Below are positions 1,064 through 59,103 of a stretch of 64,000 nucleotides of DNA, piece after piece (within the stretch, counting starts at the first letter, position 1; each line of letters starts with the position of its first letter). A program made the position numbers and the translations under genes. Origin of the DNA: Allosalinactinospora lopnorensis (GTDB taxonomy: Bacteria > Actinomycetota > Actinomycetes > Streptosporangiales > Streptosporangiaceae); the NCBI RefSeq assembly GCF_000981225.1, contig NZ_LAJC01000002.1, positions 62,001-126,000 of the forward strand, read 5' to 3'. The notes under the pieces are model-generated. The model was not told the DNA's origin. It saw only the letters and a program-made list of their open reading frames with translations, and did no database searches.

Positions 1064-1106
1064 GTAGGGCGCGCCCTACCGAACAGCCGGCGCGAGGCGC
1101 TACACT
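1064..1106 (+). promoter_or_regulatory. Putative trp promoter with a 16-bp perfect palindrome
   Basis: GTAGGGCGCGCCCTAC (1064-1079) is a perfect palindrome. TACACT at 1101-1106 fits a -10 box and lies seven bases before the leader ATG at 1114. The palindrome would overlap or abut the -35 position, as an operator often does. The -10 call rests on sequence match only. Confidence 0.45.
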
Positions 1107-1113
1107 CCTTCCC

Positions 1114-1158
1114 ATGCGAACCGAGCCGACGACTCGTCAGTGGTGGCGCCGCTCCTAG
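1114..1158 (+). CDS. trpL: trp operon leader peptide (14 aa, tandem Trp codons)
   Basis: The frame reads MRTEPTTRQWWRRS then TAG. Two consecutive TGG codons at 1141-1146 sit just before a hairpin, the layout of classical transcription-attenuation leader peptides; the Streptomyces trpE leader likewise carries consecutive Trp codons. Ribosome stalling at the Trp codons when charged tRNA-Trp is scarce would mask the first stem and favour read-through into trpEG. No Shine-Dalgarno is visible. A -10-like TACACT ends seven bases upstream of the ATG, so the transcript may be leaderless. Confidence 0.8.
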   Translation: MRTEPTTRQWWRRS

Positions 1159-1225
1159 GCGGCGCTCAAGGTTCGCATTCCCTGACCAGCGGCCGCCCGT
1201 ACCGGCGGCCTTCGGTCCTTTTCCG
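1146..1225 (+). promoter_or_regulatory. trp attenuator: leader stem and terminator hairpin
   Basis: Stem 1:2 pairs GCGCCGC (1146-1152) with GCGGCGC (1159-1165) around a 6-base loop holding the leader stop codon. A second perfect stem pairs GGCCGCC (1191-1197) with GGCGGCC (1204-1210) and is followed by the pyrimidine-rich TTCGGTCCTTTTCC, as in an intrinsic terminator. The order leader Trp codons, first stem, terminator, gene is that of a ribosome-mediated attenuator. The antiterminator pairing was not modelled. Confidence 0.7.
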
Positions 1226-1274: not shown

Positions 1275-3463
1275 TTGGACGCGAACTCCACCTCCTACCG
1301 CACCGGTGGCGGCCTCGATATTCGCCGCACCGCGACACCCTGCACCCCCGACGTCCTCACCGAGCTGGTCCGCGACGTCGAGCACCGCCGCGGCGGGGTG
1401 CTGTCCTCCGGGATGGAGTATCCGGGCCGCTACAGCCGCTGGCACCTCGGCTACGTGGACCCCTGCCTCGAAGTGGCCGCACGCGGGCGCCGTGTCACCG
1501 CGACCGCCCTGAACGACCGGGGGCGCGTCCTGACGCCCGTCATCGCCCATGCGCTGGGCGAGCACGGCGAGGCGACCGCCGCCGGCGGCACCGCGGAGGT
1601 CACCGTCCCCGAGCCCGGGGGGTTCTTCACCGAGGAGCAGCGCAGCCGCCGGCCGAGCGTCTTCTCCGTGCTGCGCTCCATCGTCGCGCTGTTCTCCTCC
1701 GACGCCGACCCGCACCTCGGTCTGTACGGGGCCTTCGGCTACGACCTCGCGTTCCAGTTCGAACCGATCGAGCAGGTCCTGGAACGCGCCCCGGAGGACC
1801 GCGACCTCGTGCTGCACCTGCCCGACGCGATCGTGGTACGCGACCGCAAGCGCGAGACCTGCCTCCGCTACACCTACGACTTCACCGTCCCCGCGTCGTT
1901 CACCGGCGACCGGGAGGGTGCCGCGACCGACGGACTGGCGCGCCGGACCGATCCCACCCCGGCCGTCGTGGCCGCCGAGACCCCAGCGCAGCCCGAGCCC
2001 GGCTCGTATGCGCGGATCGTCGCCGAAGCCAAGAAGAGGTTCGTCCGGGGCGACCTGTTCGAGGTGGTGCCCGGCCACCGCACCTACGGCGCCTGCGACT
2101 CCCCGGCCCGGTTCTACGAGCACCTGCGCGAGCGCAACCCCGCCCCCTACGAGTTCTTCTTCAACCTCGGCGAAGGGGAGTACCTGGTGGGGGCCTCGCC
2201 GGAGATGTTCGTCCGGGTCACCGGGGAGCCGGGCCGCGGGCAGCGGGTGGAGACCTGCCCGATCTCCGGCACCATCCGCCGCGGTGCGGACGCCCTCGGC
2301 GACGCCGAGAACATCCGCACGCTGCTCTCCTCCGTCAAGGAGGAGTCCGAACTGACGATGTGCACCGACGTCGACCGCAACGACAAGTCCCGGGTGTGCG
2401 AGCCGGGCAGCGTCCGCGTCATCGGCCGCCGGCAGATCGAGATGTACAGCAGGCTGATCCACACGGTCGACCACATCGAGGGCACGCTCCGCCCCGAGTT
2501 CGACGCTCTGGACGCCTTCCTCACCCACATGTGGGCCGTCACCGTCACCGGCGCGCCCAAGACCTGGGCCATGCGGTTCATCGAGCAGCACGAGACCACG
2601 CCGCGCCGCTGGTACGGAGGTGCCGTCGGTGCCGTCGGCTTCGACGGTTCGATGAACACCGGCTTGACACTGCGCACCGCGCACATCCGCGACGGCGTGG
2701 CCACCGTCCGGGTCGGCGCCACCCTGCTGTACGACTCCGACCCCGACGCCGAAGAGCGCGAGACGTTCCTCAAGGCGCGCGCGCTCCTGGAGACCCTCGC
2801 CCTGGACGGCGGCCCGCAGGCGGCTGGCAGGGAGACGGAGGCCGGCCCCGGCGCCGCGGAGCCGGAGGCCGCCGCGGCCGGTATGACGGTGCTCCTGGTC
2901 GACCACGAGGACTCCTTCGTGAACACCCTCGCCGACTACGTCCGCCGGCACGGTGCCGATGTCACCACCGTCCGCCACGGTTTCGACCCGGCGCTGCTGG
3001 ACGAGCTGGCCCCCGACCTCGTCGTCCTTTCCCCGGGGCCCGGGCTGCCCGCCGATTTCGACACCAACGCCCTGCTGGACGCCTGGACGGGCGGGGACTC
3101 CCGGTGTTCGGAGTCTGCCTGGGGCTGCAGGCGATGGTCGAGCACGCCGGCGGTGAGCTGTGCACGCTCCGGGAGCCGGTGCACGGAAAGCCGGGACAAG
3201 TCCAGGTCAACGGCGGCGAACTGCTGGCCGGCCTCGGCGGGTTCACCGCGGCCCGGTACCACTCGACCTACACGACGCCCGCCCAGGTGAAGAACTACGC
3301 GGTGACGGCCACCGTGGGCGACGGCTCCGACTCCGTAGTGATGGCGATCGAGGATCCCCGCGCCAGGCGGTGGGGCGTGCAGTTCCATCCCGAGTCCATT
3401 CTCACAGCCGCTGTCGGCGAGCGGATCATCGGCAACGTGCTGCGCCTGGCGCGCGCGAAGTAG
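1275..3463 (+). CDS. trpEG: Fused anthranilate synthase components I+II (TrpE-TrpG); one-base frameshift near 3093
   Basis: Makes anthranilate from chorismate and glutamine, the first step of tryptophan synthesis. The first ~530 residues are the chorismate-binding TrpE half (PISGTIRRG; ECx-like core with TMCTDVDRND). The last ~190 are a class-I glutaminase with GVCLGLQ nucleophile loop and FHPES. The start is TTG 1275 behind AAAAGGA. The frame breaks at the GGGG run 3093-3096: adding one G gives TGGGLPVFGVCLG and an intact protein of about 729 residues, the normal length of the fusion. The break is more likely a sequence error than a real mutation, since both flanks are fully conserved. Controlled by the attenuator just upstream. 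A PabB-PabA role is less likely because of the Trp leader. Confidence 0.88.
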
Positions 3464-12767: not shown

Positions 12768-12803
12768 GGGCCTGTGGAGCGCCGGCCGGCGCTCCACAGG
12801 CCC
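12768..12803. terminator. Strong hairpin after the mannose-1-P gene
   Basis: GGGCCTGTGGAGCGCC (12768-12783) pairs perfectly over 16 bp with 12788-12803 across a GGCC loop, 12 bases after the stop codon. It has no T-run, as is common for high-GC actinobacterial terminators. Confidence 0.7.
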
Positions 12804-15249: not shown

Positions 15250-15403
15250 GCCGCCGGGTCCGGCCCCATTCCGCTCGGAGAGGCGGACATCCAGTACGGT
15301 CGGAAGTGAGTGCCGCGCTCGATCGTACTTTCGGCGCCCCGGGAGTGATCGCGGCCCGGCGTTCGTTGGATAATGCTAATGAAGGACCTGGCCGTTGATA
15401 CCA

Positions 15404-15496
15404 CGCGGGAGAGACCCTCATCCGGGCGCCGACGGGGCAATACTCCCCAGTAACCTCTCAGGCACAAAGGACCGCGTGGAGGAGGCCACTCTGGAG
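15404..15496 (+). promoter_or_regulatory. Glycine riboswitch (single aptamer) upstream of gcvP
   Basis: The conserved aptamer elements occur in order: GCGGGAGAGACC, GGGCGCCGACGGGGCAA, ACCTCTCAGGCACAAAGGAC and CGTGGAGGAGGCCACTCTGGAG. This is the glycine-aptamer layout with a P1 closure GGAGAG/CTCTGGAG. Only one aptamer is seen; the next 88 bases to the ATG hold no second copy but could contain the ghost helix of singlet glycine riboswitches. A -10-like GATAAT at 15369-15374 would start the RNA about 30 bases upstream. In glycine-cleavage genes the ligand normally turns expression on. Confidence 0.88.
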
Positions 15497-18497: not shown

Positions 18498-18531
18498 GAG
18501 AGGCCGCCCGGCCGCGGCCGGGCGGCCTCTC
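18498..18531. terminator. gcvP terminator hairpin
   Basis: A 34-base perfect palindrome nine bases after the gcvP stop: GAGAGGCCGCCCGGCCG (18498-18514) pairs with 18515-18531. It has no T-run. Confidence 0.7.
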
Positions 18532-59053: not shown

Positions 59054-59103
59054 CGCGTGAGTGGGGGGAGGCGGCCCTAGGGCCGCCTCCCCCCACTCAC
59101 GCG
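59054..59103. terminator. 50-bp perfect palindrome between convergent genes
   Basis: 59054-59078 and 59079-59103 are perfect inverted arms of 25 bp, with AGTGGGGGGAGGCGGCC in the left arm. It lies 27 bp after the phosphatase stop and two bases before the rbpA stop, so it can terminate both transcripts; in RNA the tip must open into a small loop. Confidence 0.75.

Follow-up and report, generated by a model that had tools for sequence, protein, structure and literature searches.

The fused anthranilate synthase gene trpEG of Allosalinactinospora lopnorensis is preceded by a short reading frame that has adjacent tryptophan codons and lacks a ribosome-binding site, which raises the question of whether, and how, such a leader controls the gene. 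We analyzed a 64,000-nucleotide window around it (contig NZ_LAJC01000002.1, positions 62,001 to 126,000); coordinates below are window positions on the plus strand unless stated otherwise. The trpEG gene (1275 to 3463) matches NCBIfam PRK13566 and TrpE-clade3 as well as Pfam models, and its Shine-Dalgarno sequence AAAAGGA and TTG start codon span 1262 to 1277, with the protein match beginning at residue 1 of the TTG start (1275). The reading frame is broken by a one-base frameshift near 3092 to 3098, within a GGGG-containing stretch (3085 to 3100) just ahead of the TrpG FGVCLG motif, where relatives stay in frame; this may be either a sequencing error or a genuine lesion. A divergent helicase-like gene occupies 1 to 966 on the minus strand, its UvrD match being weak and under the Pfam cut-off. 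The initial annotation described a complete trp attenuator in this interval, and every element it named proved to be in place when the sequence was checked.

The leader peptide MRTEPTTRQWWRRS is encoded by 14 codons (1114 to 1158, with the stop codon TAG at 1156 to 1158), the A of its ATG being the putative +1, and tandem TGG at codons 10 and 11 (1141 to 1146) are marked as the regulatory codons by their sequence and by the Trp counts of relatives. A trpEG match was found in 36 of 60 related genomes, and a scan of GTDB genomes added 80 further loci, including ones in Streptomonospora, Nocardiopsis, Actinomadura, Nonomuraea, Microbispora, Streptosporangium, and Glycomyces. The annotated leader frame with its Trp codons recurs in the 87 trpEG leaders that remained once identical copies had been removed, and nearly every orthologous locus compared conserves it in the form M-R-x(n)-(Q)-W-W-(W)-R-R-stop, with two Trp codons in 67 leaders and three in 20. 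Both the leader frame and the stems, whose loss in close relatives had been named as an observation that would tell against the annotation, are kept across this set. The same arrangement, a short frame with tandem Trp codons immediately upstream of a trp gene, extends to 171 distinct leaders across the Actinomycetes, located upstream of trpEG, trpE, or trpS. A covariance model built on 25 trpEG leaders matched 92 of the 394 genomes in the class, and the downstream gene is trpE or trpS in 56 of the 58 such loci checked.

Several loci depart from this pattern. The Glycomyces leaders and one other (L019) start with GTG. Two Streptomyces trpEG-like genes (L101 and L103), which adjoin a dehydrogenase-like gene and are perhaps biosynthetic-cluster copies, have no leader. 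In a metagenome-assembled genome (L022 and L065, apparently one locus), the leader upstream of trpEG is lost and the -10 box adjoins a terminator remnant. Another trpEG locus (L013) keeps both strands of the terminal helix described below, with a single Trp codon and without the usual stop, and is possibly an attenuator in decay. Two genomes of one genus carry a Trp leader and terminator upstream of a methyltransferase-like (Methyltransf_11) gene (L153, 391 to 490; L166, 471 to 572).

Folding places a stem around the leader stop codon (1145 to 1166) that is formed by region 1 (1145 to 1153) and region 2 (1158 to 1166); its core is 1146 to 1152 paired with 1159 to 1165, and it has 9 bp in the minimum-energy fold. 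This stem recurs in the 87 trpEG leaders, with at least 6 bp in 84 of them. The terminator (1184 to 1222) pairs GGCCGCC (1191 to 1197) with GGCGGCC (1204 to 1210), is flanked by GACC (1184 to 1187) and GGUC (1214 to 1217), and ends in UUUU (1219 to 1222). A third, alternative fold is the antiterminator, in which region 2 (GGCGGCGCU) pairs with region 3 (AGCGGCCGCC, 1188 to 1197) around one bulged base. Of the 87 leaders, 41 have GGCGGC:GCCGCC as their region 2:3 core and 10 have GGCGGU:ACCGCC, where the two regions co-vary; in 23 the core is shortened to GGCGG:CCGCC. One terminator pair likewise covaries, being GC or AU at about equal frequency across the trpEG leaders. The annotated stop-codon stem and terminator are thus borne out, their stems and spacing recurring in the 171 leaders class-wide, and the proposed check by folding and covariation in relatives found the stems kept and both the region 2:3 and terminator pairs covarying. 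Sequence, folding, and covariation together indicate that antiterminator and intrinsic terminator are mutually exclusive; the antiterminator is short, with 5 to 6 contiguous pairs in most leaders, and the U-tract is weak.

We therefore read trpEG control as ribosome-mediated trp transcription attenuation on a leaderless mRNA, a reading predicted from sequence to which we assign a probability of about 0.85. The conservation of frame, stems, and terminator ahead of the Trp-linked targets trpE, trpEG, and trpS supports the attenuator claim well. By sequence comparison, region 2, just past the stop codon, would pair with either region 1 or region 3, and region 3 with region 4 would form the terminator. 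By analogy with known attenuators, a ribosome short of Trp-tRNA would stall on UGG and cover region 1, so that region 2 becomes available to region 3 and transcription continues into trpEG; when Trp is ample, a ribosome at the stop codon would cover region 2 and the terminator would form. When a stalled ribosome was imposed as a mask in equilibrium folding, the terminator still formed, a result with little bearing on co-transcriptional folding.

The second part of this reading concerns the 5' end. The window sequence has no Shine-Dalgarno motif before the leader ATG at 1114, nor room for one between that codon and the -10 hexamer TACACT (1101 to 1106), a TAnnnT promoter element that ends 7 nt upstream; no clear TTG -35 is present. 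The spacing is conserved among the 171 leaders: the box ends 6 to 7 nt before the start codon in 161, the background rate of TAnnnT at this spacing from a random position being 0.4%. In the trpEG set the gap is 6 or 7 nt in 82 of 87 leaders and 8 to 10 nt in the others. SD-like motifs occur in only 8 of 171 leaders, and a TTG -35, where present, peaks 17 to 18 nt upstream of the box. The leader set was picked for a TAnnnT box within 5 to 11 nt of the start, so the informative features are the sharp peak within that range, the low background, the scarcity of SD-like motifs, and the independent TTG peak. The box-to-start arrangement is shared by 57 of the 58 class-wide loci drawn from the covariance-model matches. 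The leaderless start, which the initial annotation had put forward as a possibility, is now strongly supported: a -10 box lies directly 5' of the start codon, an SD is absent, and Streptomyces lividans homologues are reported to be leaderless. Because of the conserved spacing and the leaderless reports from S. lividans and Sinorhizobium meliloti, we consider it very likely that the trpEG transcript begins with the first base of the leader ATG. That the attenuator instead sits on a leadered transcript, with a start farther upstream and the TAnnnT spacing incidental, would fit the one leader (L156) that has no such box, and we judge it highly improbable in view of the spacing, the -35 peak, the near absence of SD motifs, the S. 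lividans homologues, and a pairing signal, described next, that ends at the AUG.

The initial annotation listed the attenuator parts correctly and overlooked one, a conserved helix that joins the start of the RNA to a segment past the stop codon. Its 5' strand, AUGCGAACC (1114 to 1122), is coding and holds the start codon, and is a perfect 9-bp complement of the non-coding 3' strand, GGUUCGCAU (1170 to 1178). The minimum-energy fold of the 105-nt leader (1114 to 1218; -55 kcal/mol, z = -3.6) consists of this terminal helix, the stop-codon stem, and the terminator. In a 25-sequence alignment, 90% of the cells in the terminal helix hold standard pairs, and one of its pairs shows double changes. 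RNAalifold on a plain MAFFT alignment did not recover the helix, whose 3' strand is thrown out of register by bulges and by differing numbers of codons; we therefore asked, by permutation, whether the 5' end of a leader has a lower duplex energy with the linker of that leader than with the linkers of other leaders. For 83 trpEG leaders, the native energy was -13.8 kcal/mol and the permuted energy -11.5 kcal/mol (z = -9.5; none of 20,000 permutations equaled the native value), and reducing the set to a single sequence for each distinct 5' end left the signal unchanged. Across all 171 leaders, the values were -15.0 and -12.25 kcal/mol (z = -14.5), the native pairing again surpassing every permutation, and stems of at least 8 pairs formed in 52% of native versus 20% of permuted combinations. 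Related sequences are not independent and these z-scores overstate significance, yet kinship gives no reason to expect stronger pairing with native partners than with those of other clades.

A scan of the DNA with a sliding 7-mer located the pairing signal at +3 to about +15; between -24 and the AUG, and past about +15 in the middle codons, the signal is not positive. The AUG itself is nearly invariant and so can display no covariation. The paired sequences differ by group: AUGCGAACC/GGUUCGCAU in Streptosporangiales, GUACGCGA/UCGCGUAC and AUGUACGC/GCGUACAU in MYA-type trpE leaders, and UCGCGCAUGU/ACAUGCGCGA in a streptomycete-type trpS leader. In the streptomycete trpS leaders the helix begins a few bases 3' of the start codon. 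A first impression that the Streptomyces-type trpE class (so labeled because its leader peptides are near-identical to those of S. lividans) has no helix was dropped: it arose because the linker had been cut four bases past the stop, and the full linker pairs at -12.8 kcal/mol against -8.1 kcal/mol when shuffled. Inside this class, the native linker is hardly better than a swapped one.

What the helix does can be approached from its geometry. Helix and antiterminator cross as a pseudoknot; the stop-codon stem, by contrast, is nested within the helix, and the terminator lies next to it. This geometry favors a function in the state in which transcription terminates and no ribosome is bound. By sequence comparison, the first 9 to 15 nt or so would pair with the segment downstream of the stop codon; when the ribosome is absent or gone, this 5' helix would close over the stem, stabilize the terminating fold, and bury the start codon. 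A leader not promptly translated might thus be terminated, and a terminated leader not re-initiated, steps of which we are less certain. We infer that the helix probably stabilizes the terminating fold and hides the leader start region when ribosome-free. Since 155 of 171 leaders have their first Trp at codon 8 to 10, a ribosome paused on it would by our own estimate cover roughly +12 to +41, leaving the first bases exposed except in the shortest leaders, where they would be covered.

A bolder extension, which we offer tentatively, is that the helix acts as a start-codon timer peculiar to leaderless attenuators, requiring the ribosome to load before the pairing segment about 60 nt downstream is made; a late ribosome would then find the start sealed and transcription ended, and each leader would be translated essentially once. 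Within the same attenuator, the helix might instead serve mainly to shield the terminated leader RNA from 5'-end decay, yielding a stable sRNA that may, by analogy, act in trans like rnTrpL of S. meliloti. Such protection accords with the position of the helix at or near the transcript 5' end in most leaders and with the S. meliloti trpLE(G) leader, which is leaderless ahead of a fused trpE(G) and gives an sRNA and a functional peptide (PMC7298713). Only 44% of the 171 leaders have their first nucleotide paired, which tells against such protection, and as the main function we find it rather unlikely. The same figure, together with a second nucleotide paired in 60% and the later helix start in streptomycete trpS leaders, also counts against the lid-like role. 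Stabilization of the terminated RNA is nevertheless a serious alternative to the lid-like role we prefer, and both could hold.

The initial annotation also proposed a second, repressor-based layer acting through a palindrome at the promoter. The perfect 16-bp palindrome GTAGGGCGCGCCCTAC (1064 to 1079) is indeed present, and the conservation that was to support the proposal did not hold: it is missing in the relatives examined. Two-layer control, in which attenuation is combined with a repressor or activator bound at about -50 to -35, draws on the perfect symmetry of this promoter element, centered at -42.5, and on its being locally uncommon by position alone. Among about 40 same-family promoters, all from other genera, none carries the palindrome, a comparison that leaves room for a genus-level site; it has one exact copy in the genome, and copies with 2 mismatches are no commoner than those of a reversed control. 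The window has 9 perfect palindromes of at least 16 bp, where base composition predicts about 3, and this one sits in a divergent promoter region common to trpEG and the helicase-like gene. Neither conservation in orthologous promoters nor repetition at related genes was found. We thus rejected the operator reading as not conserved, single-copy, and at chance level; the palindrome probably lies outside the system, and a second layer is very unlikely. Several of the 9 palindromes are much longer; those at 59054 to 59103 (50 bp), 12768 to 12803 (36 bp), and 18498 to 18531 (34 bp) far exceed the expected length.

Rfam gave no relevant match to 1000 to 1300 up to E = 5, with no family above the gathering threshold, and over the whole window the sole family above threshold is a glycine riboswitch aptamer (15396 to 15484), away from the leader. 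As no Rfam model matched, the leader could be curated as an RNA family.

The E. coli trp attenuator works by the pairing of region 1 with 2, 2 with 3, and 3 with 4, and its leader has an SD, a 5' UTR, and a TrpR operator. The window leader shares this pairing logic; unlike in E. coli, neither an SD with a 5' UTR nor an operator was found. Trp attenuators of Streptomyces and Corynebacterium were predicted in 2005 (Seliverstov et al., PMC1262725), with the same tandem UGG and overlapping antiterminator and terminator triples; that alignment runs from the Trp codons to the terminator, with the 5' end and its helix outside it and Streptosporangiales absent. We found no account of the covarying 5' helix in the accessible literature and it appears to be undescribed there; as that body takes in only a minority of subscription papers and neither of the original S. 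venezuelae and S. meliloti reports, the absence is weak evidence. The helix offers a mutable handle on ribosome initiation at a 5'-terminal AUG during RNA synthesis. In S. meliloti, the trpLE(G) transcript is reported to begin at the leader ATG (Bae and Crawford 1990, cited in PMC7298713), and a 14-aa leader, a fused trpE(G), and attenuation are shared with the window, in a different phylum and with a peptide and sRNA that act in trans. Closest are the S. lividans leaders TrpL1 (MFAHSTRNWWWTAHPAAH, trpE) and TrpL2 (trpS), which, in the part of the report available, are transcribed leaderless by RNA-seq and combine a Trp leader peptide with hairpins ahead of the same genes (PMC8079986). That part makes no mention of a 5' helix, and TrpL1 differs from the window leader in having WWW followed by TAHPAAH and a trpE unfused to trpG. 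Streptomycete leaders found here, such as MFAHSTQNWWWTAHPAAH, are near-identical to the S. lividans ones, and streptomycete-type leaders matching them were caught by the same covariance model. Leaderless trp attenuators are therefore already known (reported 2021), and our survey indicates that leaderless Trp attenuation occurs widely among the sampled Actinomycetes, ahead of trpE, trpEG, and trpS.
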